From: Saccoglossus kowalevskii
Lineage: Eukaryota > Hemichordata > Enteropneusta > Harrimaniidae
DNA: 24,236 nt
Direction of reading: 5' to 3'
Assembly: GCF_000003605.2 (NCBI RefSeq)
Contig: NW_003127454.1
Coordinates: 1-24,236 of the forward strand
The stretch's first letter is position 1. Every line of letters starts with the position of its first letter. Made by a program: the position numbers and the translations under genes. Of the stretch, positions 3,001 through 24,236 are shown piece by piece. A model generated the notes under the pieces. The model ran no database searches. It worked only from the letters and a program-made list of their open reading frames with translations, and was not told the origin of the DNA.

Positions 3001-4293
3001 ATTATCAGTGATGTGAAATTGGGCATGTGTTAATGTCAGTAAACTGGTCTGATAATCAGTGATGTGATATTGGGCGGGTGTTAATGTCAGTAAACTGGTC
3101 CGATAATCAGTGATGTGATATTGGGCATATGTTAATGTCATTAAACTGGTCTGATAATCAGTGATGTGATATTGGGCATGTGTTAATGTCAGTGAACTGG
3201 CCTGATAATCAGTGATGTGAAATTGGGCGGGTGTTAATGTCAGTAAACTGGTCTGATAATCAGTGATGTGAAATTGGGCGGGTGTTAATGTCAGTAAACT
3301 GGTCTGATAATCAGTGACGTGATATTGGGCAGGTGTTAATGTCAGTGAACTGGTCTGATAATCAGTGATGTTATATTGGGCATGTGTTAATGTCAGTAAA
3401 CTGGTCTGATAATCAGTGATGTGATATTGGGCATGTGTTAATGTCAGTGAAATGGTCTGATAATCAGTGATGTGATATTGGGCATGTGTTAATGTCAGTG
3501 AACTGGTCTGATAATCAGTGATGTGATATTGGGCAGGTGTTAATGTCAGTAAACTGGTCTGATAATCAGTGACCTGATATTGGGCAGGTGTTAATGTCAG
3601 TGAACTGGTCTGATAATCAGTGATGTGAAATTGGGTAGGTGTTAATGTCAGTAAACTGGTCTGATAATCAGTGATGTGATATTGGGCAGGTGTTGAAGTC
3701 AGTGAACTGGTCTGATAATCAGTGATGTGATATTGGGCAGGTGTTAATGTCAGTGAACTGGTCTGATAATCAGTGATGTGAAATTAGGCAGGTGTTAATG
3801 TCAGTAAACTGGTCTGATAATCAGTGATGTGATATTGGGCAGGTGTTAATGTCAGTGAACTGGTCTGATAATCAGTGATGTGATATTGGGTAGGTGTTAA
3901 TGCCAGTAAACTGGTCTGATCATCAGTGATGTGATATTGGGCATGTTTTACTGTCAGTGAACTGGTCTGATCATCAGTGATGTGATATTGGGCAGGTGTT
4001 AATGTCAGTGAACTGGTCTGATAATCAGTGATGTGATATTGGGCAGGTGTTAATGTCAGTGAACTGTCTGATAATCAGTGATGTGATATTGGGCAGGTGT
4101 TAATGTCAGTAAACTGGTCCGATAATTAGTGATGTGATATTGGGCATTTGTTAATGTCAGTGAACTGGTCCGATAATCAGTGATGTGATATTGGGCATGT
4201 GTTAATGTCAGTAAACTGGTCTGATAATCAGTGATGTGATATTGGGCATGTGTTAATGTCAGTAAACTGGTCCGATAATTAGTGATGTGATAT
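1..4293. repeat. 51-bp minisatellite, array A (about 84 units, open at left edge)
   Basis: Head-to-tail copies of a 51-bp unit whose plus-strand parts read tgataatcagtgatgtgata, then ttgggcaggtgttaatgtca, then gtgaactggtc. Common variants are gcagg/gcatg/gcggg/gtagg, gtaaac/gtgaac and atatt/aaatt, plus rarer private changes such as tgacctg and gttgaag. The length is three times 17 and one minus-strand frame is open, so the array yields long artificial ORFs of a 17-residue repeat. The plus strand carries TGA TAA in the unit. The last unit breaks off at the polypyrimidine tract of the gene X acceptor. The array lies in the presumed last intron of gene X. I see no evidence that it is coding. Confidence 0.97.
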
Positions 4294-4307
4294 TTTATAT
4301 TTTACAG
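4294..4307 (+). promoter_or_regulatory. 3' splice acceptor of gene X terminal exon, copy 1
   Basis: A T-rich tract ending ttttatattttacag comes immediately after the last minisatellite unit. The frame that is open downstream hits a TGA at 4283-4285 and has no ATG anywhere up to its stop, so a coding exon here needs splicing from an upstream exon. The same tract is present, unchanged, at 22605-22618. Confidence 0.6.
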
Positions 4308-4540
4308 ATTTTGAAAGTACAAAACCCAGTCAAATAGGTGAGCAAGCTACTGGTGAAAGTGATGTGACATTAGTAGATGATATTGAGTCCAAAAATTCAT
4401 CTTGCACAGAAGAGCTATTCTCTCTTTCTGATTTTTCAACTTCAAATGTTGCAGGCAGTCCTTCATATTCTCCGTTACTAAATAGTTACTCCTTAGATGA
4501 CAGTGATGAAGATCTACCAGATTTTAACATCAATGGATGA
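4308..4540 (+). CDS. Terminal coding exon of unrecognised gene X, copy 1 (partial)
   Basis: After the acceptor, two bases (at) complete a split codon. Then 76 codons run open from 4310 to a TGA at 4538-4540. The frame contains no Met, so this is an internal or terminal exon and not a free ORF. The peptide is acidic and serine-rich and looks disordered: it starts FESTKPSQIGEQ, contains EELFSLSDFSTS, and ends SLDDSDEDLPDFNING. I recognise no domain and assign no function. An internal AG|GTGAGC at 4336-4342 matches a splice donor well and could trim the exon to 30 bp. The near-identical copy at 22619-22851 carries one replacement (Asn to Lys) and one silent change. Upstream exons of this gene are outside the window or hidden. 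The coding call is inferred from the acceptor, open frame, composition and 3' end. Confidence 0.5.
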
Positions 4541-5100
4541 TTTTCACAATACTAATATTTAACACATTTCCATTATATCGTACGCCTTTGATACATGATG
4601 TTTATTTGTGGAAGAAGAAATCATCTCCACATGCATACCCCCGGTAGTTTTTAGGCATTTGCGTAGAACTGGATTTAGATATACGATGTCATTTTAAATA
4701 TTACTCTGGTAAATAACTATTACTTTAAAAAAATCAAATTCCAAACCATGCAAAACTGAACAGATTGTCATGCACTATATGGACAGTGAGCCCTCAATTT
4801 CTTCCAAACTGTACAATTTTAAAATGGTGTGAATTTATAAATGGTATTCCTATGACAGGACCCTTATGCACACTATTGTACACTATTTCTTTTTTAATGG
4901 TCGCTGGTAGTTGTCAGTCTCTTCAATTTAAATTTTGTGTAAATATGCAAAATGGTTTAATCATTGTAGTAGTGTTTTTTGATGTGTATTTTACAGTGCA
5001 TTATTGATGTTTAGTGGGCTAATTTTTGAATAGAATACATTATCTTGATGTAATTTTATTTAATTTCAAAGTTGAAAATAAATCACTGTCCTAAAGTTGT
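4541..5100 (+). other. 3' UTR of gene X, copy 1, with polyA signal
   Basis: AT-rich non-coding sequence after the gene X stop codon. AATAAA lies at 5077-5082 and is followed about 17 bases later by a GT-rich tract (tgtgttgttttgt, 5098-5110), the usual layout of an animal cleavage site near 5095-5105. An 80-codon ORF at 4765-5007 lies wholly inside and looks fortuitous: it is Cys/Phe-rich with no recognisable domain. Copy 2 of this segment differs by only two substitutions. Confidence 0.5.
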
Positions 5101-5559
5101 GTTGTTTTGTAAACATATGAAGTAATGTTGTCCCTGTTGCAAGTGTAATATGGATGTCGTCTTTGTGACCAGGTAAATCGTTTCTGCATGAATTGAGTGA
5201 ATAACTGACTGTACTAGTATCAACAAAAATCAGATTTATTAAATGACTAAATTTGCAATATTTGTAAGTAAAGTGTTTAATTTTTATGGCATTACTCAAT
5301 GACACTTGCAATGTATTCATGGTGGGGAAATTAGAGAATGAAGCACAAGTCAAACATGAACTTGTACAAAGAAGTGACAAACTTGTTTACATGCACCCAT
5401 AATTGTAATGTTGTGCAAGCTAATATGCACCCAATTTGAAAATGATGACCATATACATGTAGAAAATTAAAATATTAGAAAATGGGATCGAGAATTGAAT
5501 CCTGAATTATTCAAATTCGATCACAACTCATTTCGAGCACCAATAATAAGCTGCAAAAC
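5101..5559. other. Intergenic spacer, no feature recognised
   Basis: AT-rich sequence between the gene X polyA site and the LINE tail. The minus-strand ORF at 5066-5380 has no family resemblance and overlaps the 3' UTR, so I do not call it. The same stretch recurs 18,311 bp to the right with two substitutions. Confidence 0.6.
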
Positions 5560-6015
5560 ATAGAGCAGTTGTAACAAAATTGAGAATTAGCGCCCATAGT
5601 TTAGAAATAGAGAAAGGACAATACCAAAAAATTCCTTGTAGTGGCAGAAAGTGCACTGCTTGCGACCAAAATGAGATTGAATACGAAATGAGCTTCATAA
5701 TTGAATGCATGCTGTATGAAAATGAAAGAACTGAAATATGGAAGGAAATCAGTTTAATACATTTGCAACAACATAAATACCAATTGATTACAACAAGCAA
5801 TAACAGCCAAAAAATAACAAAACTAGCAAGCTACATCTAATTGTTTCAGTGCCAAGCATTACAAAAAAATACCAGCTATTTCTCTTTTTTTTAAATCCTT
5901 TTCTATTTTGCTACTTCCTCAATTTTTTGTTTTTGTTGTAATTTCCAAATCAAAATAAGGATATGATAAATGATGCAATAAAGATTATTCTTATTGTCAA
6001 CATAAAAAAACAAAA
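5560..6015 (+). mobile_element. LINE (non-LTR retrotransposon) 3' tail, copy 1
   Basis: From about 5563 the reading frame gives AVVTKLRISAHSLEIEKGQ, then CTACDQNEIEYE and SFIIEC, ending with a stop at 5838-5840. This is the C-terminal tail typical of Jockey/CR1-like LINE polyproteins: a K-L-R-I-S-A-H motif followed by a Cys-x2-Cys finger. The usual His before the last Cys is Ser here, so the finger is probably broken. The non-coding tail ends with AATAAAGATTATTCTTATT (5977-5995) and A-rich sequence to about 6015, like the 3' end of the LINE fragment near 15,660. The element is severely 5'-truncated, and two in-frame stops sit just upstream of the motif. The same tail recurs at 23,871 onward. 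Confidence 0.75.
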
Positions 6016-6043
6016 AAATCCATTAAAAGACTTGATTGTAAAC

Positions 6044-6049
6044 TTTATT
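6044..6049 (-). promoter_or_regulatory. PolyA signal of the FBXL15-like gene
   Basis: TTTATT on the plus strand is AATAAA on the minus strand, about 75 bases after the stop codon of the FBXL15-like last exon. Cleavage would fall near 6020-6030, just outside the LINE tail, giving a very short 3' UTR. Confidence 0.55.
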
Positions 6050-6122
6050 GATAGCCACATATATTTTGACAAATGTACAAATTTGTTAGCACTGCTATTG
6101 TGAAGTTATCAGCCCATGTTTT

Positions 6123-6306
6123 TTATATCTGATGGAACAATGCTGGATATGGCAAGACAGCTGGGTGTGGTTCTCTACCTCCAGGAGGCGCTCTCACATC
6201 AATATCAATTCCCTTCACTCGTAATCGAGCTAAGCTGGCTTCATTTATATCACGGCAATCTGAAACTTCTAGTTTACGTAATTTGGGGCAACAATCGCCT
6301 AGTAAT
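6123..6306 (-). CDS. FBXL15: Last coding exon of FBXL15-like F-box/LRR protein
   Basis: On the minus strand the acceptor ttttgttatttcag is followed by one base (A) and 60 codons, ending TAA at 6125-6123. The peptide starts LLGDCCPKLRKLEVSDC, a cysteine-containing leucine-rich repeat, continues INEASLARLRVKGIDIDV, and ends with a Pro-rich tail closing in ALFHQI. The segment R-L-R-x-K/R-G-I/V-D-I-D-V followed by prolines is the C-terminal signature I recall for FBXL15. The single A completes an Arg codon with the CG left at 17347, so the two exons are phase-compatible. FBXL15 is an SCF ubiquitin-ligase receptor, known in mammals to target SMURF1. That role is carried over by family, not shown here. 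The gene converges on gene X, with the LINE tail between them. Confidence 0.82.
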
Positions 6307-7488
6307 CTGAAATAACAAAAATATAAATATTGGTACAGAAAATTGGGGTGAGGACATTTGCTAAGGTGATGAAATGGTTAAATGTCTGAAACTCACTTCT
6401 CAAACATTCTCATCTACTTCACTTCAAACATCAGGTTGTATCTCTGACCACTATGCCTATTATGTAGGTGTGAATTCTGGATTACACTGGTGCTATGCTT
6501 GCCACAGCAGACTTTGCTGGTAGTTTATTACCTGCTTTGTATGTTTTCGTAATGTCATTCTTGTGTCGAACACACAGATGCAGATTTAGCCTTTCTAGCC
6601 AGATCGTCATCGTTTCTGTTCAAATCAGTCAATTTGTGGACGAGTTACGGCATTTTAAATTTTTCCTACTTTCATCTACGAAATTTATAAATGCATGATA
6701 AGCAAATTTAAAGTAATATTTCTCATTATTCCCAGATTTGTCAAATAGCAGCGTTGACAGTGTTCTTTTTTTGCGGATGCTTCGTATTTTTTGTGGATAG
6801 ATTTATTTAAAAAGTTGATATGCTCACACAACTATTAAAGTAATTGAAGTCATTTAATATTCACTACAAAGCTGATAATTATCTCTGTTCTCATTTTTTG
6901 TATAATTACAGAAACATGGAAAATAAACATAGAAATTTGTGGAGATTATTTAAAGGGGAGCAAAGGTGTGGCTTTTGACACTCTGTACATGAAATTTGAG
7001 ATCTATGAATGAATTCTGTTGATAAAAACAACTTGTATGTGCTGCGAAATGCCCTAAATATCGGGTATAAAACGGGCTGTGAAGCAGACAAACGCCCGCT
7101 TTGCTTGGCGTCATTTCGCCTCTAGAGGGCCAGTCAGATGATGTCAGCAGTGAACATTGATAACTGAACCCATTCATGCTAGTACGTCAATCCCATAGAA
7201 ATGCTACTATGAAAGACCTTGTTAACTGACCACTTAAAAGTTGAAACATGGAGAGGTGTTGTGTTATGAATGCCACAACGATTCATGTTATGTTTCTCGA
7301 AATCCCAAATAAAAATTTGCGTTGCTGGTTGCGAGAAATCGGCGGAAGAACTAACCTGAAAGTGAAGACACATACAGCGTTCTGGCTATTGTAAACAGTG
7401 AGTAAATAAATATTGTTTCTTTCACTATCTCATTTTTCGTAATTTTTTCAAACTGCAGTGCACCTAAGTCGTAAAAAATACAAAGTAT
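6307..7488 (-). other. Proximal part of the FBXL15-like intron, no feature recognised
   Basis: AT-rich intronic sequence next to the last FBXL15-like exon. The short ORFs here (6495-6698, 6906-7177, 7179-7373) overlap on opposite strands and match nothing I know. A 10-bp palindrome, cctctagagg, lies near 7119. No splice-flanked coding segment is convincing. Confidence 0.55.
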
Positions 7489-7510
7489 GTCCCGACACAA
7501 CAGTCGGGAC
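7489..7510. repeat. Perfect hairpin at the left edge of the DIRS remnant
   Basis: GTCCCGAC and GTCGGGAC form an 8-bp perfect inverted repeat around a 6-nt loop (acaaca). It sits where the sequence turns from AT-rich intron to GC-richer retroelement, so it may belong to the element's terminus. That placement is inferred. Confidence 0.5.
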
Positions 7511-7560
7511 GCAAGACATGCTCATTCTGCCTTAAACAATGCCTGTTTGGGTCCCGCTTA

Positions 7561-9000
7561 TTGCCTTTCACGCTCGGTTGTGTCAGGATACAAGCACAAG
7601 CTGAGATACTGCCTGTACCTCCACCACCAGGGCTAGGGTCAAGTGTGTCCCATTCTCCTAGTGATCTCTCCTTTAGAGGGTCAGTGGGGGGACAACTCAC
7701 ATCAGTGGGAAAGGGAGCATCCACTTTTTTAATAAAGGGGGCTCTATCCCTGGAACGGATCGCCTTGCGCGTCCTCTTCCATACCCCCCCCCAGGCTCGG
7801 GCTAACCAGGCATTGTTTCCTGCGTCTTTCCAAGCCGTGCAGAGTGCCCCCACTTATGACTCTGCGAGGGGACTCCAGTGTTGGTACCCCTGTACAGGGC
7901 GGTATGCAACCCTCTTATGGGGTGCAGCTACCATTTCTCCAACAGGAGGGGGGGTGAGCGCTTTGTCGTTTCTCGTCTCATCTTTGTCGGGGCAGTCACA
8001 GGATACCCAACCAACCGGAGCCCAGCTGTCCCTTACTAATATGCAGTTAAGGTTGCAGCTTGTGAACCAGGCAGTGATGGCCGCGAGACTTGTACGCCCG
8101 TTGGCCAACTCCCCTGAGTGCCTCGTGTGACCCAGGCTATGGAGGAGGCTCAGAGGGTGATGGAGGGGTGATTGGTACCCTTCGGGAGAAAAGGACAAAC
8201 AGCTTAAACCTGGTTTCGGAGCGGTCACGTCCAATGCCTTCCGTTGGGTGAATCGATATCCCATTGGGGCTATGTGAACCGTTGATAGGTCCCGGTGTTG
8301 GACACGTGGTACCACAGTCTCTCCATAGGTTCCCTGTCCTTAACCCGGTACCCATACTTTTGTTATGGCGGGTAGTGCAGATCGAGAAGGCCACGTTGCG
8401 TGGTCATTTGACCGGCACCAATGCCTACTAGTGCATAGGGCTTTACGGGCGGAACTTAGACCCATCAAGTTTATAGAATGGGCTTCTTTAGTGTTAGAGC
8501 GTCAGCTCAACAGCAAGCCTCGATCCTCGGCAGATGGGCCAGTCCCTGGCGACGCAGAGAGTCGCTATGTGTGATATCTTGTAAGTCCATACTGCCCTCT
8601 TGACAGGAGCGGTTTCGGCTGAGCGTGAGGCAGTTCTGGGTCTGTGCGCCTATCCTAATCTGTGACCGGCTATTTAGTGGACGGTTAGTGGATGCGGTGA
8701 ATGGTTTGGCGGTTGCTGAGGATCAGCGTATCCAATTTAAGCAATCGTCCCTGTTGGCCAAAGTAGCTAGTCCTTCTGGTCAATGGTTCTAACTAAAACT
8801 ACAAGGCAGCCCAGGCAGTAAGTCCTCCGCTCTGAGCCACAACCAGCGAGGATCAAAGCGCTCATAGTCTCCTTCGAAGGGGCAGAAAAAGACTAGTAGC
8901 GGGAAGCGTCAGAGAAAGCCCAAGAAACGTGGTGTTGGTGGTGGGTGTTCTGACACTTCTGGGGACCAGGGGGCCGCGAAGTCTCTTTGAAGGTTCGCCG
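7561..9000 (+). pseudogene. Gag-like / pre-RT region of the DIRS remnant (broken)
   Basis: A 189-codon plus-strand frame (7561-8130) is followed by pieces in other frames, up to stop-ridden sequence at 8900-9000. A recognisable piece near 8660-8760 reads DRLFSGRLVDAV and then AEDQRIQFKQSSLL, like the segment that precedes the basic region in DIRS gag proteins. A Lys/Arg/Ser-rich stretch (SSGKRQRKPKKRGVGGG, about 8895-8950) follows. Opposite-strand ORFs over the same bases (7464-7853, 7854-8315, 8137-8394) are shadows caused by the GC content. Assignment of the first 189 codons to gag rests on position only. Confidence 0.5.
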
Positions 9001-9239
9001 ACTGCCTGGACATGGATGGTGGTACGACTCCGGGTCTCCCTCCCCAGAGTCCTCGGGCTCAGTCTCCCCCTCTTCGTCCTAACATACTGGAGGCTGGAGT
9101 TCGGGTAGCACTAGCTCCAAATCCCCGTCCGCTCCTTCCAATGGGATCGTGCCTTATGTAGCACATACCAGCTTGGCGCAGGGTATCAGATTCCTCTTCA
9201 GTCTCCTCCTCCTCTGAGTCCTCACCCTCCCTCAGGTCT

Positions 9240-9860
9240 TTTGTCGAGGGATGAGGTCAAGGCGGGGACGATCCGACAGGAAGTAGCAAGCCCCGTATTT
9301 ATTGCCAGGGTTCTTTCCCACATCTTCCTTGTTCCCAAGAGTTGGGGGGTGGCGTCCAGTTCTAGACTTCAGTCGCCTGAACGGGTTTGTGGAACTTAAG
9401 CGCTTCCGGATAGAAACACCAGCGGGCATTGCTGGATATGAGCGACGCTTACCTCCACATTATGATTCACCACTCATGCAGCCGATATCTCAGATTCCCA
9501 TCTGAGGGCAAAGTTTACCGCCTTTATTTTCGGTCTGTGCACGGCACCGTATGTCTTCACCAGTGTGCTAAGACAGGTGACCCAGCTGCTACACTGGTCG
9601 TCTGCCTATCCAAACCCACATCTTGACGACTGGTTATTACACAACTGAGACAGGGAGGCTTTAGTGGAGCACATGCTTTTGACGCAGATTCTCCTCCATG
9701 AGTTGGCCTTTTCAATAAATATTGCCTAGTCCAACCCAATACCATCCTACAGCCTGGTTTTTCTGGGTATGCAGTTCGACATGGATCAAGGGCTTGTTTG
9801 CCGTCGCAGGAGCGATGCAACTCTCTTGTAGAGTTCACCAGCCAACTCCTGTCGTCGGGA
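9240..9860 (+). pseudogene. DIRS reverse transcriptase domain (broken)
   Basis: Motifs appear in RT order but in shifting frames. HIFLVPKSWG comes near 9316, then in another frame GGWRPVLDFSRLNGFVELK (about 9341-9400), then the SDAYLHI strand near 9440, the catalytic-type LDDWLLHN (about 9621-9645), and LVFLGMQFDMDQGLV (about 9758-9800). The palm box is LDD preceded by His, compatible with DIRS-like RTs. At least two frameshifts and stops at 9646-9648 and 9726-9728 show that it cannot be translated as one domain. I describe it only as a relic. Confidence 0.78.
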
Positions 9861-10029
9861 TTGGTGTCGATACACGAACTGATGACTTCAGTTCGTCGTC
9901 TGGCTCTCCGGTCTCATCCAATTCAGAGGTGCTTACAGGATCCACATGCGAAACCTGACGTTCAGGGGTTCGATCATTGGACCAAGCAATGTCTGCCCTC
10001 CTTTGGCGGAACGACACATGGTACTTGGA

Positions 10030-10412
10030 AACAGGAACTCCCCTAGATCCGACGACTCCCTCGCTGACTCTCATTACAGATGCGTCGCCCCAGGGATGGG
10101 GCCGTCTGCATATTTAGGCCGCCACATCTATTGGTTGGAGTTGCAGACCGTCCTACTGTCTGAAATTTTTCAGGGAGTCGCACACCATCACAGAGTCCTG
10201 CTTTGGACAGACAACACCTTAGTAGTGTCAAGGAAAGGAGGGACACGTTCCCCCATGTTGTCGAAGCTAGCGGAGGAGATTCTCCTTTGGTGCCTGGATA
10301 ACCCGGTTGAGCTATCGGCTTACCACCTCCCAGGGATACGCAACAGCGCTGTAGACGCCCTCTCGAGACGTATCCAGTTTCAGAACACCGAGTGGCAGAC
10401 CCCCCCTCCCTA
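10030..10412 (+). pseudogene. DIRS RNase H domain (broken)
   Basis: LITDASPQGWG (about 10066-10098) carries the first RNase H acidic residue. After a frameshift the 9946-10413 frame supplies WLELQTVLLSEI, then the LLWTDNT strand with its Asp, then GGTRSP and HLPGIRNSAVDALSRR with the last acidic position. The order and the D-N-T, G-G-T-R-S and D-A-L-S-R boxes are hallmark DIRS RNase H features. The first part of that ORF, before about 10110, is out of frame with the domain. One frameshift separates the two halves. Confidence 0.78.
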
Positions 10413-10893
10413 ATGGGTGGCGGACCCGCAGTTTTGTCTCTGGGATGGGCCCCAGATAGTTCTGTTTGCCAATCACTGGAATGCCAAGCTCCCGGCGTAC
10501 GTGTCACTCCTCTCAGAGACGAGCGCTTTCGCCATGGACGCTCTATCCATCTACGCTTCCAAGTGGGAGCCAAGTGTTGGAGAAGTTGTGACTCAAGCCC
10601 ACCTGTCTTCTGACTTGGGTGGCGCCCAATTGACCTGTGAAGGTCTGGCTCCCAATGTTGCTGGAACTTCCAGTTGAGTCGCCGAATATCCCGGATCTGT
10701 TGTCCCAGCCGGACGGCACTCTACCGATGAGCCCGCTCTATTCCATATTCACGCGTGGAGGCTGTCAATAAACCAAGCACTAGGCTTTTCTGCAAAGTTG
10801 TCCAAGTTCCTCGCTTTGGCACAGTCGGACGGCACCAGACATTTGTATGAATCCAGATGGAGACCGTACATTGATTGGTGTTACGGAAGCTAA
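10413..10893 (+). pseudogene. Post-RNase H linker and truncated tyrosine-recombinase start
   Basis: From about 10414 the frame gives IVLFANHWNAKLPAYVS and FAMDALSIYASKW, the 'D-L-F-A..N-x-K-L-P-x-Y-V-S' linker found after RNase H in DIRS elements. Another frame from about 10740 gives HAWRLSINQALGFSAKLS and RHLYESRWRPYIDWC, resembling the N-terminal SAM-like, core-binding part of the DIRS tyrosine recombinase. A TAA follows at 10891-10893. None of the catalytic Arg, His-x-x-Arg or Tyr boxes is found downstream, so the recombinase is truncated or was lost by deletion. Confidence 0.6.
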
Positions 10894-10915
10894 TCCTCCT
10901 GACTGGTACTTGTCG

Positions 10916-11899
10916 TTGGTCTAATGGCGTTACGACCCCCCCTGGAGCCTATGGATAAGGCGAACACGAAGTATGTCACTATGTAAACAGTTTTTTCTTT
11001 TGGCTCGAGCGTCAGTCGCTTACCCTGGAGACAGGTGATGTTTTGTTGACGATTGGGCCAAAATCGTCTACAGTATTGAAGCCGTAGCTGTAAACATTCA
11101 TCAAAATGTATCAACATTCTGTACATTATACAATAACTCTTTATTAAAGTGATTGAGCTGATTTGGACTGGAATAAAATATTTTTTATTTGGAACACATC
11201 GCAATTGATCAGGAAATATTTGTTTGCTCCAGTTTTCTGCGTCGATGCCGTGGGCTGGTGACCGTTATACAATTGTTTACAGTGTTCTAATCATTACGAT
11301 TTACTTATTTGTTTGCTTCCATTCTAGATAATTATGCTCAGTGTTTGATGTTAAATTGAAGTGATGACTGTATAAACGAACTTTGGCTGGCGAAGATTTA
11401 TCAGGAAGTGTACATATTTGTTAGAAGTGAAACAAAATATTTAATGTAATGAAAAAAATTGTAAAATGCTGTGGAATTTCTTTTGTAAAAAAAAATATAC
11501 TAGCAATTTTCTATTAATGGTTTATTCAAGTGAGCAAAATATAATGTACAGAAAGATTGCACGTAGAGTATCGCTACACTGAAAAGTAAGCAACCGACAG
11601 CCTGTATAAAAGAGGGCTGTGATTGGCTGTTACTTACGCGAGATTTGAACGGGACTTACATAGGCGTCGGATCAGATGTATGTAGGGCGAAATTAAAAAA
11701 AAAATCTCAAAATCAAAGTAAAGTAATAAAATAAAAAGGCATTAATAACAAAAGTAATAAAAAATAAAATTAAAATAAGTTTATAGCCAAAATAATTAAA
11801 GCCTGTACACTACATCAGATTTTAATCAGATTGCCTCCTTTGCTTGACGCTGCCGGTTTTGTTTGGCGCTATCAAACCCCAGCAATACACTGCTTTGAT
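10916..11899. other. Intronic AT-rich stretch, no gene recognised
   Basis: No coding motif on either strand. The minus-strand ORF at 10890-11204 is unrecognised and overlaps the end of the DIRS relic. A TATAAAA with nearby imperfect inverted arms (agtaagcaaccgacagcc ... ggctgttactta) lies near 11585-11637 and is followed by an A-rich run (about 11690-11800). These could be remnants of a mobile element's non-coding end. Confidence 0.5.
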
Positions 11900-12490
11900 G
11901 CATTAAAATTGTTGGGACCCTATTTCATTGTTCAGTCGACCGGCATTAGTAAGCCTCCCCATATTGGGGGGTCTACTTTCGAGGCACTCAGTCCCTGAAA
12001 GTCGCCTAAGTGGTTTTATCCTGGGCCAAGACTCTTTGTTAGTGAGTAGTTTTGATTTCTCTCAGTTTTTTGACCTTTTTTTTTTTGTGTTGAAAAATAT
12101 ACATTTCAGCTGTCGGAGCTTCCCTACCTCCCTCACTAGTAATAAATGGAATTTATTATTTCCACGGTCTTTCTGGTAGGTGATGTAGTAAACTATTAGG
12201 GTTGTAAAAACCTGTTTGTTTACTTAATCATACCTACCAGAAAGTCTGTAGAAAAACGCCCACCTCACCACAAGCTTTCGGCAGCCCGTTGGTGCAGCGG
12301 AAACGTTTGTGAGAATGATTGGATCAGGCCTCACGAGCATCCTGATAGTGACCCCTTAGGAGAGGCCTGTAGTTAATCTGTAGTTAAGCCTAACGAGTAA
12401 TAAATGGAATTTATTATTTTCATGGACTTTCTGGTAGGTATGATTAGGTACAGAAACGGGTTTGGACAACCCTAATAGTTTAGTACAAGC
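11900..12490. mobile_element. Non-coding terminal debris with direct and inverted repeats (possibly DIRS-type)
   Basis: A block of about 44 bp containing taataaatggaatttatta (a palindrome with a 3-nt centre) followed by ctttctggtaggt occurs at 12137-12181 and again, in the same orientation, at 12393-12438. The stretch after the second copy (gactttctggtaggtatgat ... accctaatagtttagtac, 12424-12486) also occurs inverted at about 12177-12255. Mixed direct and inverted repeats of this sort fit the split or inverted termini of DIRS-like elements. The similarity to known DIRS ends is from memory and is not proven. The 83-codon ORF at 11928-12179 has no recognisable domain. Confidence 0.5.
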
Positions 12491-12514
12491 GATCATATAT
12501 TTGTATTAAAACAC

Positions 12515-13230
12515 ACTAGTCAAAATAAATACATTTACGCCTGCTTAATAGATTTCGAAACGGCATTTGATTCAATTTGGCGTCAAGGTCTTTTGTACAA
12601 ACTCTTAAAAAATTGTATTTCAGGAAAATTTCACAAAATCATCCAATCAATCTGCACTACTAGTAGCTCATCGAGTTGTATAAAATTAAAATTAAAAAAT
12701 GGCTTAACAGAAGCATTCCCATTCCAAAGAGGCGTCCAACAAGTCCATTACTATTTAATATATGTCAACGATATTGAAGAATATTTAGAAAATTCAAACA
12801 CTGATTCTCCTTCTTTACTAAATAGTCATCTTCCCTGCCAGATGATCTACTTCTGTTATCTAAATCAAACACAGGTCTTCAAAATGCTTTAAACTTTAGG
12901 TATTTATTGTGAAAAATGGCAACATATCATCAACATATCAATATAACCAAAGTTATTATATTCAATATAACAGGAAAAACTCACCAAGCATAAATTTCAT
13001 ATTAATAATGTTGAACATGAAACAGTTTCTAATTATTCTTACCTGGGAGTCAAATTAAGTAGTTCAGGCAAGCTCCATACAGCACAAGATGATTTAGCAA
13101 ATAGGGCTTTGAAAGCATGTTTTAAAATAAAACAACTTTTACACAGTGACATTTATATCCCTGTCAAAACATATCTAATCAAAGAAAGCTTAGAAAGAAC
13201 TCCCGTGTGCTGTGAGTATTGGAGACACAT
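12515..13230 (+). mobile_element. LINE reverse-transcriptase fragment
   Basis: The plus strand gives YIYACLIDFETAFDSIWRQG (about 12531-12590), the A/F-x-D RT box, then KLKNGLTEAFPFQRGVQQ, then after frame changes LLFNIYVNDIEEYLENS-like and DDLLLLSKSNTGLQNALN. The last carries the downstream Asp-Asp of the RT palm, with the preceding residue disturbed. Further on, NYSYLGVKLSSSGK and RALKACFKIKQLLHSD (about 13030-13150) match the post-palm region of Jockey/CR1-like LINEs. Several frameshifts make it a pseudogene. The sequence matching the next RT-C part resumes at about 14,670, so the two pieces are probably one interrupted element or two copies in the same orientation. Confidence 0.78.
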
Positions 13231-14655: not shown

Positions 14656-14664
14656 CAGACAGGG

Positions 14665-15690
14665 TAACTGTTTGTGTGACTATTATAAAACCAGTTTTAC
14701 TGTACTGCACTGAGATCTGGTCAAGCAACAATATTAAATCAAAACAAAATATTTTCAACAACAATAACCCAGCAGAAAAAATACACATTAAATTTCTCTT
14801 AAAAGTAAATTGCAAATCATCTAACATAGCATGCCTGATGGAGTTGGGTCGCTACCCTCTCACTGTTACTAGTACAATTCAGATGGTAAAATATTGGATA
14901 AAAATATCACAGAAGCCAGAATACACTCTTCTAAATGAGGCATATAGACTAGGTATCACTCTAGACAAAGCTGGCACACCAAACTGGGTGTCAAGCATCA
15001 AACAAACTTTAAATTTGGTAAACAAGGATGACATCTGGAAAAACCACACTCCTAAAACTATTAACAAACTTATTACCACAGTCAAGGAGAACATAAAACA
15101 GACATTTCAAAGTCACTGTGATAACTTTCTATTCGATGACAAAAAGGGAGGCAACCATAGAAACAAACTACGCACTTACAGATGCATTAAAGAGAAAGTT
15201 ATCTTGAAATAGTCAAAAATCCATTCCATAGGTCAGCATTGACAAAATTAAGGATAAGTGCACATACTCCACAAATTGAGAAAGGCAGATACACAAACCA
15301 CGCCTTACAAGATAGAAAATGTCAAATTTGCCAGAATGGAGAGATTGAGGATGAAAAACATTTCCTCCTAACGTGATCACACTATGATGCATTAAGACAA
15401 GACAGCCTAAACAAATGTTTTGCAACACCGACCAATCAAAACAAGCAAGAAAAACTAGTAAATATACTTAAAACAAAAGACAAAAACATGTTAATTAATT
15501 TAGCCAAATTTGTATACCAAGGCTTCTTAATGAGAGAAAACTACATTAAATCTAATAAAAAAAAATGTTTTTGCTTTGTTTTGTGTTTTTGTTCTCTAAT
15601 GTTCAACATTTAACTTTATTGTATCACGAACAATATCTGAATTAAGGTTACATTTATCAATAAAGATTATTATTATTATTATTACACATC
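14665..15690 (+). mobile_element. LINE C-terminal fragment with 3' ATT-repeat tail
   Basis: The frame from about 14665 to 15212 gives IIKPVLLYCTEIWSSNN, then AEKIHIKFLLKVNCKSSN, then LMELGRYPL, the conserved region after the RT domain of Jockey/CR1-like LINEs. A frameshift near 15205 moves to a frame with LTKLRISAHTPQIEKGRY, then CQICQNGEIEDEKHFLL. There the final Cys of the Cys-x2-Cys...His...Cys finger is replaced by a TGA (about 15376). The 3' end is AATAAAG (15659-15665) followed by ATT repeats to about 15684. It is the same family as the tails at 5560 and 23871 but clearly a different copy. Confidence 0.8.
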
Positions 15691-16033
15691 GGTATGTCAC
15701 GGGATGTACACCAATCTCACCCCCAATACATTCAATTTCACTGAAAATGGAGAACCTACCTTTGCAAACACGTCTGTTATGCTGCCTTCTTGAAGTTCCT
15801 GCAATCAAATATGGCTACTACTTCTTCTACTAACTAGTGAAGGAAACCACTGAGCCGAACAAAATATAAACAGTAATATAATAACTTACAGATCTAATCT
15901 AAGGCAAAATACTTTATTTTAGCTGGAATTTATATTCACTGAAAAGACTTTTTGGGTGTTTTGTATGGAATTTATTTTGATTGATTTAAGACGAGTTGAA
16001 AGTAAAATATAGGAAACAAGCCATGCATGGCAC
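15691..16033. other. Intronic stretch, no firm feature
   Basis: AT-rich. On the minus strand a 39-bp segment (15798-15760) is flanked by a good acceptor (tttgattgcag) and donor (AAG|GTAGGT) and would encode ELQEGSITDVFAK in one phase. That phase does not fit the FBXL15-like junction: inserting it there gives a stop. It is therefore not annotated as an exon. No other signal is seen. Confidence 0.45.
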
Positions 16034-16972
16034 AGTCCCCGTTAGTTATCAAATTTAAAATATATAGTTTTGTTTATAGTAATATAGCAGGAATATAACC
16101 ATGTCAGGAATATGATTTTTTTAACATTAAAATGATTGAAATTTGTATCTGATCGTCAAACAAGTACTTGTCCATATTGAGAGAAATTGCTCTGGAACAG
16201 CATTCAAAATCAGCCATTTTGAATACATGTATATATATAACATGATGTATAACGAATATATAAAATTTGAATATAATCAGTCAAAGCATTCAAGAGATAT
16301 GGCTCTAGAAGCCCAATCATTAAAACAAAATGGCCGCCAGACAGCCATTTTGAATCCGATCTGAAAAATAAATGATGTGCATCAGGAACCTGTAATGTCT
16401 GATATATGTACCAAGTTTGAACGAAATCCATCCATAAATGCCAGAAATGCTTGATATTTGATGATTGTTTAGCACAAAAAAGGCCACCATTTGGTCATTT
16501 TAAATAGGATCGTCAAACCAATATATCTGTCTATCTATGACATGATGTATAATGAATATTTAAAATTTGAACATAATCAGTGAAACCAAGTCAGAGATAT
16601 GGCACGAGAACCACATTCATTAATACAAAATGGCCGCCAGTCGGCCATTTTGAATCTTATCTGAAAAACAAAATTATTTGCATCAAGGTCCCATAATGTC
16701 TAATGTATATACCAAGTTTGAACAAAACCCATCAGTAAACAGCCGAGAAATGCTTGATTTTGATGATTTTAGCACAAAAATGGCCGTTATTCGGCCATCT
16801 TGAATCAGATCGTGAAACAAATTGATGTGCATATGTATAATATCATGTATGGTGTATGTGTAAAGTTTGATTGTGATTGGTCAAGGCATTTCTAAGATAC
16901 AGGTCCGGACGCACGCACACACGGAGGTCAAAACATAAGTCCCCGTTTTCGGACTGCGTCCGAACGGGAACT
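16034..16972. mobile_element. 939-bp non-autonomous element with inverted ends and 150-bp internal repeats
   Basis: The left end AGTCCCCGTT (16034-16043) and the right end read in reverse, AGTTCCCGTT (16963-16972), are inverted copies. Just inside the right end lies a strong hairpin (16938-16972) with arms around the loop tgc. Internally, four blocks containing aaaatggcc or aaaggcc are spaced exactly 150 bp apart (tggccgccag at 16331, a variant at 16481, tggccgccag at 16631, a variant at 16781), with alternate blocks more alike (300-bp period). Accompanying motifs are taccaagtttgaac and catgatgtataatgaat. It ends with a cgcacgcacacacgga tract before the hairpin. There are no coding motifs. 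A Helitron-like end (hairpin then CTAA) or a TIR element are both possible. Confidence 0.6.
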
Positions 16973-17260
16973 AAAAAGGTATACTCTCTGGATTCTATTT
17001 TAACTAAATCATTCCTTCAGCGAAAATAAAGTATTTTGCAGTAATTAATTTATTCTGAGTATGCGCAGTTGTTCTGTCAATGTTGCTGGGAGAGGTAATT
17101 TTTGATGAAAATCATGAAAAATATCCACTTAGGATTTTCAGATCTGGAAAAAAAATTGTTGCATGGTCAAAAGATTATTGTTCATCAACCTGCTTTCATT
17201 GATATCTGCTGCAGAATTTCTGAAACAATTTTGAAGACGGTAAATTAAAAACCCGAATTA
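16973..17260. other. Intronic stretch, nothing recognised
   Basis: AT-rich intron between the 939-bp element and the solo hairpin. It has no ORF, repeat or splice-flanked segment of note. Confidence 0.5.
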
Positions 17261-17296
17261 GTAGTCCCTTTTCCAGGCTGCACCTGAATGGGGAAT
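17261..17296. repeat. Solo hairpin resembling the end of the 939-bp element
   Basis: The sequence agtcccttttccaggctgca continues as cctgaatggggaataataaa. Arms ccc..ttccagg and cctgaa..gggg pair around ctgca, the same layout as the hairpin at 16938-16972 (agtcccc...hairpin...cgggaactaa). It is probably a decayed relic of a related element. Confidence 0.45.
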
Positions 17297-17346
17297 AATA
17301 AAGCACAGTGCCTCTATTTGTGAATAAAGCTTAAAATAAAACTTAC

Positions 17347-17635
17347 CGTATGACTGAATTTGTAATCCTCCAACAACCCTGAATATTAAGATGTTCAAAA
17401 GCAGAACAAGTTCTTGCCAGCATGTCGATTACAACATTTGTTATGCCATATATTTTTGCTAAAGAAAGATATTTCAGTCCAGGATGAGATATTATTAATA
17501 CCAAGATAGTTTCATCATCAAGTTCCCAGCAGCTTGTCAAGTCAACATATTGTAGACACTCACAGTTCATTGCGAGGACAGCCAAAGCTGGAGCCTGCAC
17601 CCAGTGGCATCCATGCACAGAAATGTAACGCACAA
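17347..17635 (-). CDS. FBXL15: Internal LRR exon of FBXL15-like F-box protein
   Basis: On the minus strand the exon starts after acatcacatcag with TT (completing a split codon), runs 95 codons, and ends ATACG|GTAAGT, a near-consensus donor. It encodes cysteine-type leucine-rich repeats: RYISVHGC, LQYVDLTSC, LKYLSLAKI and FEHLNIQGC, each 26 residues apart. The period is also kept to LRKLEVSDC in the exon at 6306-6123, with the CG + A junction making an Arg codon. This resembles the LRR region of FBXL15 (DLTxCxxLxDE, then a LARxC segment). FBXL15 family members recruit substrates to an SCF ubiquitin ligase. The F-box itself is in upstream exons not seen here, expected to the right of the window. 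The minisatellite reads in frame into this exon, which I regard as accidental. The acceptor tract is weak in pyrimidines. Confidence 0.82.
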
Positions 17636-17637
17636 CT

Positions 17638-20600
17638 GATGTGATGTGATATTGGGCGTGTGTTAATGTCAGTGAACTGGTCTGATAATCAGTGATGTGA
17701 TATTGGGCAGGTGTTAATGTCAGTGAACTGGTTTGATAATCAGTGATGTGATAATGGGCATGTGTTAATGTCAGTGAACTGGTCTGATAATCAGTGATGT
17801 GATATTGGGCGTGTGTTAATGTCAGTGAACTGGTCTGATAATCAGTGATGTGATATTGGGCAGGTGTTAATGTCAGTGAACTGGTCTGATAATCAGTGAT
17901 GTGATATTGGGCAGGTGTTAATGTCAGTGAACTGGTCTGATCATCAGTGATGTGATATTGGGCAGGTGTTAATGTCAGTGAACTGGTCTGATAATCAGTG
18001 ATGTGATATTGGGCGTGTGTTAATGTCAGTGAACTGGTCTGATAATCAGTGATGTGATATTGGGCGTGTGTTAATGTCAGTGAACTGGTCTGATAATCAG
18101 TGATGTGATATTGGGCATGTGTTAATGTCAGTGAACTGGTCTGATAATCAGTGATGTGATATTGGGCAGGTGTTAATGTCAGTGAACTGGTCTGATAATC
18201 AGTGATGTGATATTGGGCAGGTGTTAATGTCAGTGAACTGGTCTGATAATCAGTGATGTGATATTGGGCAGGTGTTAATGTCAGTAAACTGGTCTGATAA
18301 TCAGTGATATGATATTGGGCAGGTGTTAATGTCAGTAAACTGGTCTGATAATCAGTGATGTGATATTGGGCAGATGTTAATGTCAGTGAACTGGTCTGAT
18401 AATCAGTGATGTGATGTGATGTGATATTGGGCATGTGTTAATGTCAGTGAACTGGTCCGATAATCAGTGATGTGAAATTGGGTAGGTGTTAATGTCAGTA
18501 AACTGGTCTGATAATCAGTGATGTGATATTGGGCAGGTGATAATGTCAGTGAACTGATCTGTAATCAGTGATGTGATATTGGGTAGGTGTTAATGTCAGT
18601 AAACTGGTCTGATAATCAGTGATGTGATATTGGGCATGTGTTAATGTCAGTGAACTGGTCTGATAATCAGTGATGTGATATTGGGCAGGTGTTAATGTCA
18701 GTAAACTGGTCTGATAATCAGTGAACTGATATTGGGCAGGTGTTAATGTCAGTGAACTGGTCTGATAATCAGTGATGTGAAATTGGGTAGGTGTTAATGT
18801 CAGTAAACTGGTCTGATAATCAGTGATGTGATATTGGGCAGGTGTTGAAGTCAGTGAACTGGTCTGATAATCAGTGATGTGATATTGGGCAGGTGTTAAT
18901 GTCAGTGAACTGGTCTGGTAATCAGTGATGTGAAATTGGGCGGGTGTTAATGTCAGTAAACTGGTCTGATAATCAGTGATGTGATATTGGGCAGGTGTTA
19001 ATGTCAGTGAACTAATCTGATGATCAGTGATGTGATATTGGGTAGGTGTTAATGTCAGTAAACTGGTCTGATAATCAGTGATGTGATATTGGGCATGTTT
19101 TACTGTCCGTGAACTGGTCTGATCATCAGTGATGTGATATTGGGCAGGTGTTAATGTCAGTGAACTGGTCTGATAATCAGTGATGTGATATTGGGCAGGT
19201 GTTAATGTCAATGAACTGGTCTGATAATCAGTGATGTGAAATTAAGCAGGTGTTAATGTCAGTAAACTGGTCTGATAATCAGTGATGTGATATTGGGCAG
19301 GTGTTAATGTCAGTGAACTGGTCTGATAATCAGTGATGTGATATTGGGCATGTTTTAATGTCACTAAACTGGTCTGATAATCAGTGATGTGATATTGGGC
19401 ATGTGTTAATGTCAGTAAACTGGTCTGATAATCAGTGATGTGATATTGGGCATGTGTTAATGTCAGTGAACTGGTCCGATAATCAGTGATGTGATATTGG
19501 GCGTGTGTTAATGTCAGTGAACTGGTCTGATAATCAGTGATGTGATATTGGGCAGGTGTTAATGTCAGTGAACTGGTCTGATAATCAGTGATGTGATATT
19601 GGGCAGGTGTTAATGTCAGTGAACTGGTCTGATAATCAGTGATGTGAAATTGGGCAGGTGTTAATGTCAGTAAACTGGTCTGATAATCAGTGATGTGATA
19701 TCGGGCAGGTGTTAATGTCAGTGAACTGGTTTGATAACCCGTGATGTGTTAATGTCAGTGAAGTGGTCTGATAATCAGTGATGTGAAATTGGGCGGGTGT
19801 TAATGTCAGTAAACTGGTCTGATAATCAGTGATATGATATTGGGCATGTGTTAATGTCAGTGAACTGGTCTGATAATCAGTGATGTGAAATTGGGCGGGT
19901 GTTAATGTCAGTAAACTGGTCTGATAATCAGTGATATGATATTGGGCATGTGTTAATGTCAGTGAACTGGTCTGATAATCAGTGATGTGATATTGGGCAG
20001 GTGTTAATGTCAGTGAACTGGTCTGATAATCAGTGATGTGATATTGGGCATGTTTTACTGTCAGTGAACTAGTCTGATCATCAGTGATGTGATACTGGGC
20101 AGGTGTTAATGTCAGTGAACTGGTCTGATAATCAGTGATGTGAAATTGGGCAGGTGTTAATGTCAGTGAACTGGTCGATTATCAGTGATGTGAAATTGGG
20201 CATGTGTTAATGTCAGTAAACTGGTCTGATAATCAGTGATGTGATATTGGGCGGGTGTTAATGTCAGTGAGCTGGTCTGATAATCAGTGATGTGATATTG
20301 GGCTTGTGTTAATGTCAGTGAAGTGGTCTGATAATCAGTGATGTGAAATTGGGCGTGTGTTACTGTCAGTGAACTGGGCTGATAATCAGTGATATGAAAT
20401 TGGGCGGGTGTTAATGTCATTAAACTGGTCTGATAATAAGTGATGTGATATTGGGCAGGTGTTAATGTCAGTAAACTGGTCTGATAATCAGTGATGTGAT
20501 ATTGGGCAAATGTTAATGTCAGTGAACTGGTCTGATAATCAGTGATGTGATATTGGGTAGGTGTTAATGTCAGTAAACTGGTCCGATAATCAGTGATGTG

Positions 20601-22604
20601 ATATTGGGCGTGTGTTAATGTCAGTAAACTGGTCTGATAATCAGTGATGTGATATTGGGCATGTGTTAATGTCAGTAAACTGGTCCGATAATCAGTGATG
20701 TGAAATTGGGCATGTACTAATGTCAGTGAACTGGTTTGATAACCAGTGATGTGTTAATGTCAGTGAACTGGTCTGATAATCAGTGATGTGAAATTGGGCA
20801 GGTGTTAATGTCAGTGAACTGGTCTGATAATCAGTGATGTGAAATTGGGCAGGTGTTAATGTCAGTGAACTGGTCTGATAATCTGTGATGTGATATTGGG
20901 CAGGTGTTAATGTCAGTGAACTGGTCTGATAATCAGTGATGTGAAATTGGGCAAGTGTTAATGTCATTGAACTGGTCTGATAATCATGATGTGACATCGG
21001 CAGTGTTATGTCAGTGAACTGGTTGATAACAGTGATGTGTTAATGTCAGTAAACTGGTCTGATAATCAGTGATGTGAAATTGGGTAGGTGTTAATGTCAG
21101 TAAACTGGTCTGATAATCATTGATGTGATATTGGGCAGGTGTTGATGTCAGTGAACTGGTCTGATAATCAATGATGTGATATTGGGCAGGTGTTAATGTC
21201 AGTGAACTGGTCTGATAATCATTGATGTGAAATTGGGCAGGTGTTAATGTCAGTAAACTGGTCTGATAATCATTGATGTGATATTGGGCAGGTGTTAATG
21301 TCAGTGTACTGGTCTGATAATCATTGATGTGATATTGGGTAGGGGTTAATGTCAGTAAACTGGTCTGATAATCAGTGATGTGATATTGGGCAGGTGTTAA
21401 TGTTATTGAACTGGTCTGATAATCAGTGATGTGATATTGGGCGGGTGTTAATGTCAGTGAACTGGTCTGATAATCAGTGATGTGATATTGGGCATGTGTT
21501 AATGTCAGTGAACTGGTCTGATAATCAATGATGTGATATTGGGCATGTGTTAATGTCAGTGAACTGGTCTGATCATCAGTGATGTGATATTGTTGAGGTG
21601 TTAATGTCAGTGAACTGGTCTGATAATCGGTGATGTGATATTGGGCATGTGTTAATGTCAGTGAACTGGTCTGATAATCAGTGATATGAAATTGGGCAGG
21701 TGTAATGTCAGTAAACTGGTCTGATCATCAGTGATGTGATATTGGGCAGGTGTTAATGTCAGTGAACTGGTCTGATAATCAGTGATGTGAAATTGGGCGG
21801 GTGTTAATGTCAGTGAACTGGTCTGATAATCAGTGATGTGAAATTGGGCGGGTGTTAATGTCAGTGAACTGGTCTGATAATCAGTGATGTGATATTGGGC
21901 ATGTGTTAATGTCAGTGAACTGATCATCAGTGATGTGATATTGGGCAGGTGTTAATGGCAGTGAACTGGTCTGATAATCAGTGATGTGATTTTGGGCAGG
22001 TGTTAATGTCTGAACTGGTCTGATAATCAGTGATGTGATATTGGGCATGTGTTAATGTCAGTCAACTGGTCTGATCATCAGTGATGTGAAATTGGGCGGG
22101 TGTTAATGTCAGTAAACTGGTCTGATAATCAGTGATGTGAAATTGGGCGGGTGTTAATGTCAGTAAACTGGTTTGATAATCAGTGACCTGATACTGGGCA
22201 GGTGTTAATGTCAGTGAACTGGTCTGATAATCAGTGATGTGATATTGGGCATGTGTTAATGTCAGTAAACTGGTCTGATAATCAGTGATGTGATATTGGG
22301 CATGTGTTAATGTCAGTGAACTGGTCTGATAATCAGTGATGTGATATTGGGCATGTGTTAATGTCAGTAAACTGGTCTGATAATCAGTGATGTGATATTG
22401 GGCATGTGTTAATGTCAGTAAACTGGTCTGATAATCAGTGATGTGAAATTGGGCAGGTGTTAATGTCAGTAAACTGGTCACGATAATCAGTGATGTGATA
22501 TTGGGCATGTGTTAATGTCAGTAAACTGGTCTGATAATCAGTGATGTGATATTGGGACATGTGTTAATGTCAGTAAACTGGTCCGATAATTAGTGATGTG
22601 ATAT
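17638..22604. repeat. 51-bp minisatellite, array B (about 97 units)
   Basis: Same unit and orientation as array A. It starts two bases outside the acceptor AG of the FBXL15-like exon (tgatgtgatgtgatattggg) and ends at the T-rich acceptor tract of gene X copy 2, so it fills the whole gap between two opposite-strand exons. It shares rare unit variants with array A in the same order: gttgaag at 18840 (array A 541 and 3688), gggctgataatcagtgatat near 20371 (array A 2249), and a shortened unit ttgataaccagtgatgtgtt near 20736 (array A about 2609). The arrays are therefore copies of one another with unit gains and losses. A patch of single-base deletions lies at about 20985-21035. Confidence 0.97.
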
Positions 22605-22618
22605 TTTATATTTTACAG
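22605..22618 (+). promoter_or_regulatory. 3' splice acceptor of gene X terminal exon, copy 2
   Basis: Same T-rich tract ending acag as at 4294-4307, again abutting the last minisatellite unit. If the right-hand copy is real, this acceptor lies inside an intron of the FBXL15-like gene, on the opposite strand. Confidence 0.5.
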
Positions 22619-22851
22619 ATTTTGAAAGTACAAAACCCAGTCAAATAGGTGAGCAAGCTACTGGTGAAAGTGATGTGACATTAGTAGATGATATTGAGTC
22701 CAAAAATTCATCTTGCACAGAAGAGCTATTCTCTCTTTCTGATTTTTCAACTTCAAAGGTTGCTGGCAGTCCTTCATATTCTCCGTTACTAAATAGTTAC
22801 TCCTTAGATGACAGTGATGAAGATCTACCAGATTTTAACATCAATGGATGA
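22619..22851 (+). CDS. Terminal coding exon of unrecognised gene X, copy 2 (partial)
   Basis: Same length, phase and stop as the exon at 4308-4540, 18,311 bp to the right. Two substitutions separate the copies inside the exon: aat to aag (Asn to Lys) and gca to gct (silent Ala) in the stretch ending VAGSPSYS. The open frame, acidic tail (SLDDSDEDLPDFNING) and internal AG|GTGAGC at 22647-22653 are preserved. Whether this is a second gene copy, an allele placed in tandem or an assembly duplicate cannot be decided from the sequence. No domain is recognised. Confidence 0.45.
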
Positions 22852-23411
22852 TTTTCACAATACAAATATTTAACACATTTCCATTATATCGTACGCCTTT
22901 GATACATGATGTTTATTTGTGGAAGAAGAAATCATCTCCACATGCATTCCCCCGGTAGTTTTTAGGCATTTGCGTAGAACTGGATTTAGATATACGATGT
23001 CATTTTAAATATTACTCTGGTAAATAACTATTACTTTAAAAAAATCAAATTCCAAACCATGCAAAACTGAACAGATTGTCATGCACTATATGGACAGTGA
23101 GCCCTCAATTTCTTCCAAACTGTACAATTTTAAAATGGTGTGAATTTATAAATGGTATTCCTATGACAGGACCCTTATGCACACTATTGTACACTATTTC
23201 TTTTTTAATGGTCGCTGGTAGTTGTCAGTCTCTTCAATTTAAATTTTGTGTAAATATGCAAAATGGTTTAATCATTGTAGTAGTGTTTTTTGATGTGTAT
23301 TTTACAGTGCATTATTGATGTTTAGTGGGCTAATTTTTGAATAGAATACATTATCTTGATGTAATTTTATTTAATTTCAAAGTTGAAAATAAATCACTGT
23401 CCTAAAGTTGT
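22852..23411 (+). other. 3' UTR of gene X, copy 2, with polyA signal
   Basis: Equivalent of 4541-5100, with AATAAA at 23388-23393 and the same GT-rich downstream tract. Differences seen are t to a (actaatattt/acaaatattt) and a to t (catacccc/cattcccc). Confidence 0.45.
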
Positions 23412-23870
23412 GTTGTTTTGTAAACATATGAAGTAATGTTGTCCCTGTTGCAAGTGTAATATGGATGTCGTCTTTGTGACCAGGTAAATCGTTTCTGCAT
23501 GAATTGAGTGAATAAATGACTGTACTAGTATCAACAAAAATCAGATTTATTAAATGACTAAATTTGCAATATTTGTAAGTAAAGTGTTTAATTTTTATGG
23601 CATTACTCAATGACACTTGCAATGTATTCATGGTGGGGAAATTAGAGAATGAAGCACAAGTCAAACATGAACTTGTACAAAGAAGTGACAAACTTGTTTA
23701 CATGCACCCATAATTGTAATGTTGTGCAAGCTAATATGCACCCAATTTGAAAATGATGACCATATACATGTAGAAAATTAAAATATTAGAAAATGGGATT
23801 GAGAATTGAATCCTGAATTATTCAAATTCGATCACAACTCATTTCGAGCACCAATAATAAGCTGCAAAAC
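23412..23870. other. Intergenic spacer, copy 2, no feature recognised
   Basis: Equivalent of 5101-5559. Two substitutions were seen (ataactgact/ataaatgact and gggatcgag/gggattgag). It holds no recognisable gene. Confidence 0.55.
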
Positions 23871-24236
23871 ATAGAGCAGTTGTAACAAAATTGAGAATTA
23901 GCGCCCATAGTTTAGAAATAGAGAAAGGACAATACCAAAAAATTCCTTGCAGTGGCAGAAAGTGCACTGCTTGCGACCAAAATGAGATTGAATACGAAAT
24001 GAGCTTCATAATTGAATGCATGCTGTATGAAAATGAAAGAACTGAAATATGGAAGGAAATCAGTTTAATACATTGCAACAACATAAATACCAATTGATTA
24101 CAACAAGCAATAACAGCCAAAAAATAACAAAACTAGCAAGCTACATCTAATTGTTTCAGTGCCAAGCATTACAAAAAATACCAGCTATTTCTCTTTTTTT
24201 AAATCCTTTTCTATTTTGCTACTTCTCAATTTTTTG
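23871..24236 (+). mobile_element. LINE 3' tail, copy 2 (cut by window end)
   Basis: Same AVVTKLRISAHSLEIEKGQ start and Cys-x2-Cys finger as the element at 5560. One substitution (ccttgtag/ccttgcag) and a single-T deletion near 24072 are present. The deletion shifts the frame so that it stops at 24095-24097, well before the position used in copy 1. Three more single-base deletions follow before the window ends. Because both copies share flanks and position, this is the same insertion duplicated with the locus and not an independent insertion. Confidence 0.72.

Follow-up and report, generated by a model that had tools for sequence, protein, structure and literature searches.

How should a gene end that occurs twice on one contig be read, as the product of a recent tandem duplication or as a single locus that has been assembled twice? 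The question is raised by contig NW_003127454.1 of the hemichordate Saccoglossus kowalevskii (C2001 in our numbering), on which the end of a gene, here called gene X, stands on either side of two exons resembling those of the F-box/leucine-rich repeat (LRR) protein FBXL15, and next to long arrays of a 51-bp minisatellite. The window, that is the whole stretch analysed, is this entire contig of 24,236 bp, taken from an assembly of 572 Mb in 4,830 contigs, and both of its edges are contig ends. The evidence points to a probable false duplication, in which the assembler bridged an array private to this region and displayed one gene X end, probably in the form of two alleles, twice. This reading is favoured because no second FBXL15-like exon was found in the assembly, because the arrays have diverged, because the end of the right array is rich in insertions and deletions (indels), and because the contig ends inside the two copies.

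Two copies of the gene X end and their neighbouring exons

An earlier note, made from the sequence of this contig, described two ends of gene X in the same orientation, 18,311 bp apart, with seven substitutions and about 0.4% divergence. The repeat and its seven substitutions are borne out by alignment, since positions 4295-5761 recur at 22606-24072 in equal orientation, ungapped over 1,467 columns, with differences at left-copy positions 4447, 4453, 4553, 4637, 5205, 5489 and 5639. Divergence of these gene X flanks is 0.48% (95% confidence interval 0.19-0.98%, computed with n = 1466), so the earlier figure stands for the flanks and fails for the arrays (see below). Both copies have open frames that run to a common stop, one of the seven substitutions alters an amino acid (N to K), and the ratio of transitions to transversions among them (2:5) is uninformative. 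In its last 165 bases the right copy also contains three aligned one-base gaps (5762, 5863 and 5885) and a fourth near 5918, read by eye where the alignment breaks up, an excess with a Fisher p of 1e-4 for four gaps or 1e-3 for three.

Features of the contig are, in order:

1..4294, + strand: left array (L), ~84 copies of the 51-bp minisatellite, cut by the contig start (repeat detection)
4308..4540, + strand: terminal exon of gene X, copy 1, after the acceptor TTTTACAG and open to the stop (alignment, frame and splice reading)
4541..5100, + strand: predicted 3' untranslated region (UTR) of gene X, copy 1, with AATAAA near 5080 (sequence reading)
5534..5999 (end read by eye), + strand: tail of a non-long-terminal-repeat retrotransposon (long interspersed nuclear element, LINE), a dispersed repeat in the genome (sequence and genome matches)
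6123..6306, - strand: FBXL15-like last exon, single in the assembly search (splice frame and protein match)
Between the FBXL15-like exons: intron of ~11 kb with transposable elements (sequence reading)
17347..17635, - strand: FBXL15-like LRR exon, single in the assembly search, 5 bases from the array (splice frame and protein match)
17641..22605, + strand: right array (R), ~97 units of 51 bp (repeat detection)
22619..22851, + strand: terminal exon of gene X, copy 2, with the one amino-acid change N to K (alignment)
22852..24236, + strand: second copy of the gene X 3' UTR, the spacer and the LINE tail, truncated at the contig end (alignment)

The unique segment 4295-17640 (13.3 kb) is thus flanked on both sides by 51-bp arrays of equal direction, and the right array lies 5 bases (17636-17640) from the FBXL15-like exon and 13 bases (22606-22618) from the gene X exon. 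The contig contains zero N across its 24,236 bp, hence no assembly gap letters between the copies, where there is a long assembled array with an indel-rich part. Aligned with one another, the two ends of the contig are 93.3% identical over 5.9 kb.

When the assembly was searched with the end of gene X (window 4300-5163, bases 1-864 of the query), C2001 alone was matched, twice, among the best 40 of 86 candidates that were scored; the 44 matches from this search also include 40 LINE-tail copies and two short matches at 5164-5259. Gene X had no match in Pfam and no relative in viral contigs, and Rfam gave zero matches in the window at gathering scores.

The two exons on the minus strand (17347-17635 and 6123-6306) splice in frame, and the pair matches residues 144-278 of human FBXL15. 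The human protein served as the query in a protein search of the assembly (22 of 22 candidates scored, 20 matches), in which 17343-17627 was the best match (37%, E 4.4e-11), with other LRR genes, on contigs C4122 and C1940, close behind (E 5.7e-11 and 7.0e-11; 28-30%). Positions 6186-6308 match residues 238-278 (51%, E 3.9e-4), in order after the LRR exon. None of the other matches extends beyond residue 268, and the exon pair reaches the C-terminal end, where FBXL15 has the motif RLR-x-G-[VI]-DIDV. The best relative in the PDB is FBXL2, matched in four registers, and an FBXL query returned nothing from prokaryote genomes. The likeness to FBXL15 lies in two exons that follow in the expected order, whereas its N-terminal F-box exons were not recognised: query residues 1-72 gave zero assembly matches at E <= 1, an F-box domain is not among the exons read on C2001, and this contig carries part of the gene. 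The LRR exon itself may be cut by the array junction, since its acceptor is pyrimidine-poor. That the array was seeded from this splice acceptor is no more than an idea, as the two share only the five bases ATCAG at their ends.

A tandem duplication of the whole unit predicts two sets of these exons, and each was found once among the 20 assembly matches, although further copies may be absent from the assembly. A DNA search with window 17000-17640 (best 40 of 285 candidates scored) agrees with this, as one of the 40, that on C2001, is full-length, the other 39 cover the transposon part of the query, up to base 306, and the LRR-exon part matched C2001 only. That transposon part is itself a piece of a dispersed element (17000-17305, at least 39 further matches, 77-86%) that comes immediately after the LRR exon as the gene is transcribed. 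The earlier note had also predicted a second FBXL15-like last exon just past the right edge of the window and another LRR exon ~0.66 kb to the left of position 1. Neither lies on C2001, because the contig stops at both window edges, and the assembly searches gave no second copy of either.

The 51-bp minisatellite and its history

Minisatellites consist of tandem units of roughly 10-100 bp, and both arrays are of this kind, with a head-to-tail unit of 51 bp present in 84.4 copies in L, which is open at position 1, and 96.3 copies in R. An exact 33-base stretch of the unit, searched for across the whole assembly, has 191 matches, all on a single strand, of which 66 fall on C2001 and 125 on one other contig, C41; none was found outside these two contigs, nor in viral or prokaryote contigs. 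C41 (17,700 bp) is composed of the minisatellite from end to end and of nothing else, and a relaxed unit pattern (<=3 mismatches) occurs 318 times there and 167 times in the window. The assembled array thus totals ~27 kb in three stretches, and since at least 17.7 kb of it lies in one place, joins are unreliable here. A dispersed minisatellite that forms part of a mobile element was ruled out by the confinement of the 33-base matches to C2001 and C41, a result that holds for exact matching only.

The longest exact runs between the stretches are 333 bp (L and C41), 232 bp (R and C41) and 192 bp (L and R), so no two of them are near-identical, and some of the three could be alleles of one fast-changing array. 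Within stretches, exact repeats reach 365 bp in L and up to 380 bp in C41, which also has scattered indel clusters. In unit-level self-comparisons, the best block of L against itself (40.5) was under the shuffle maximum (52.5) and none was found for R.

Unit-level alignment shows that arrays L and R share history. It had been proposed that rare variants follow in the same order in both, and shuffles (200, 60 or 25, depending on the test) uphold this for the best block and for a chain anchored at the array ends: the block L43-53 with R52-62 reaches 62.7, where 200 shuffles gave at most 41.5, and the colinear chain scores 31.9 against a shuffle mean of -6.9 and a maximum of 10.5 (25 shuffles, last 4 units held in place). 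The proposal does not extend to five other blocks, whose scores (18.4-30.1) are under the shuffle maximum of 38.5 (60 shuffles), and one block, L69-79 with R19-29, which contains the longest exact L-R match of 192 bp, is out of order.

The arrays also differ from each other by more than the flanks do. In the two largest L/R blocks there are 25 variant differences over 22 aligned units (1,122 positions), versus 7 in 1,466 flank positions (Fisher p = 9e-5), and the smaller blocks differ by 0-1.6%; divergence is therefore not uniform over the unit that would have been duplicated. At the divergence of the flanks, the longest exact run between L and R is expected to be ~700 bp (median 707), and a longest run of 192 bp or less arose in 0 of 20,000 simulations at 0.48%, in ~1 in 10,000 at the upper bound of the confidence interval and in 16% at 2%. 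Therefore, the divergence of the arrays exceeds what a plain 0.4% copy of the whole 18.3-kb unit would show.

Indels are in excess at both contig ends. Four one-base insertions occur in the first 3 full units of L, as many as the one-base indels counted in the 82 remaining units (p = 1e-4). Together with the gaps at the right edge, this excess suggested thinly supported contig ends, and the later genome search showed that both edges are indeed ends of the contig. Within R, units 66-97 contain 12 indel events in 32 units, six of them in one unit, versus 6 in the 147 other units; counted by unit, 6 of 32 carry an indel versus 6 of 147 elsewhere (p = 0.009). For these counts L1-3 (4 events), the 61-bp unit R15 (4 events) and the partial last unit had been set apart beforehand, and units with a 14-base deletion were scored as no event, whereas in C41 such units were scored as several events. 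In addition, the first 12 units of R lack T9A, G33A and C16T, three common variants that were chosen after looking at the data (permutation p 0.001 for an initial run, 0.048 for a run at any position). The right array fits a mosaic, whether made by an assembler bridge or by a real crossover.

A coding array was also considered, since the minus strand gives a 17-residue Ser/Thr-rich, mucin-like repeat in frame with the LRR exon. It was ruled out, as the indels are mostly non-multiples of three and synonymous variants show no excess in the open frame (67 of 385, weighted) over the other five (52-217 of 385).

Transposable elements on the contig

The sequence that follows gene X, and that recurs with it, had been called a LINE tail, an assignment supported by its similarity to the LINE in the middle of the window (44% over 59 amino acids, E = 3e-11) and by the position of 40 of the 44 genome matches, which fall in it. 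These 40 other copies are at most 92% identical, mostly 72-87%.

Other elements occupy the intron between the FBXL15-like exons. The mid-window LINE (12540-15690) is degenerate and seemingly split by an AT-rich element at ~13290-14675, in which internal repeats recur at intervals of roughly 140-260 bp; the RVT_1 match of the LINE is under the Pfam cut-off and was the only Pfam match among the frames of transposable elements. A second degenerate element, at 7470-10980, is GC-rich (47-54%) and has no significant Pfam match; its fragments, which include an RNase H-like stretch, resemble a DIRS-type retroelement. Positions 12131-12487 contain a direct repeat of 51 bases (90%) together with inverted arms of 63 bases (89%) separated by 178 nt, and look like a small foldback element.

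False join or real duplication

A mechanism that would account for these observations starts from a 51-bp minisatellite that is private to the region and whose full length exceeds what is seen on C2001. The contig would begin in an array within the last intron of gene X, cross the convergent 3' ends of gene X and FBXL15, and re-enter the same repeat beside the FBXL15 LRR exon. From there, the assembler would pass through near-identical units into an array that leads once more to the gene X end, and stop 1.6 kb later, so that the two gene X ends would represent one locus, most likely as two alleles. The artificial join would then lie within the right array. The same repeat can come to bracket the segment from arrays in two introns, one in gene X and one in FBXL15, or from one multi-copy unit, and a bridge from the FBXL15-side array to the one beside gene X, whether an assembler or a real unequal crossover makes it, yields exactly the structure observed.

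Known cases offer partial parallels. According to the sections of PMC9516828 on false duplication, allelic copies can be assembled as paralogues, 7-24% of false duplications in older assemblies lie on the same scaffold, and their marks, most of which call for reads, are half read depth, gaps between the copies, discordant read pairs and one-copy k-mers. The heterotype form described in those sections resembles our contig in having two copies that differ at the level of single-nucleotide polymorphisms and share a single sequence, separated by a stretch that is hard to assemble, and here second neighbour exons were not found; it is unlike it in that the stretch here is assembled minisatellite and not a gap of N. 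In the part of PMC9578598 that concerns the MUC3 genes, a tandem-repeat exon is more diverged than the parts flanking it, and part of PMC6947457 reviews the origins of minisatellites. Like hypervariable minisatellites (variable number tandem repeats), the arrays have a head-to-tail 51-bp unit with many variant repeats, block rearrangements and fast change relative to the flanks, but they are very long, with 17.7 kb in a single contig and ~27 kb when the three stretches are added up, and exact units occur in two contigs only.

Several observations weigh against a false join. The join is gapless, and the seven substitutions, clean and with no indel over 1,467 bp, are as compatible with a paralogue as with an allele. 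Were separate arrays to lie in two introns, their units would be expected on the contigs that bear the upstream exons of gene X and FBXL15, yet the exact matches are confined to C2001 and C41. The indel cluster is not specific to a join, since the interior of C41 has such clusters too, and a change-point scan on G33A alone places the best break in R at unit 88 (p = 0.048) rather than close to unit 12. Finally, missing pieces alone do not prove a single copy, because the N-terminal exons of FBXL15 were not recognised anywhere in the assembly.

The earlier note had left the choice between a tandem duplication and a wrong join, and the genome search, with its single exons and long array, favours the wrong join. 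A real event is possible, if unlikely: a private minisatellite grown to tens of kb in the introns of two convergent genes may have driven a recent tandem (or circular) amplification of the array and the 13.3-kb segment by unequal crossing-over between same-direction arrays, after which both genes would remain whole at the outer ends, an orphan end of gene X, inside FBXL15, and orphan FBXL15 exons would lie between them, and the arrays would have changed fast. Same-direction arrays flank 4295-17640 whatever the right copy is, rare variants are shared in order, a mosaic right array is what a crossover would leave, and the contig has no gaps, all of which suit array-mediated segmental duplication; in contrast to such a case, neither a second FBXL15 last or LRR exon nor the rest of a second unit came up in the assembly searches, the arrays diverge more than the flanks, and the contig ends within the copies amid error-like indels. 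Improbable, by comparison, is a native order of FBXL15 LRR exon, one long array and gene X end, with the false join placed instead in the LINE tail (5530-6120) that separates copy 1 of gene X from the last exon of FBXL15. A single array would then explain both array edges, and the tail is a dispersed repeat, but its other copies are too different for an easy misjoin and the convergent 3' ends of the two genes form an orderly pair. The alignment of the contig ends to each other could also reflect a molecule that repeats, such as an extrachromosomal circle or a longer tandem series of the array and the 13.3-kb segment, yet this is very doubtful, as the FBXL15 exons were found once and the explanation needs at least two distinct units, because the two arrays are different sequences and 7 sites distinguish the ends of gene X.

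A false duplication across the minisatellite is therefore the reading we prefer for this contig, which shows in compact form how a single long, private minisatellite can give the end of a gene the look of a recent duplication. The most telling cheap test was how many copies of the neighbouring exons the assembly contains, taken together with the existence of a contig that is all array. A real duplication would instead offer a clean case in which a minisatellite mediated duplication between two genes.

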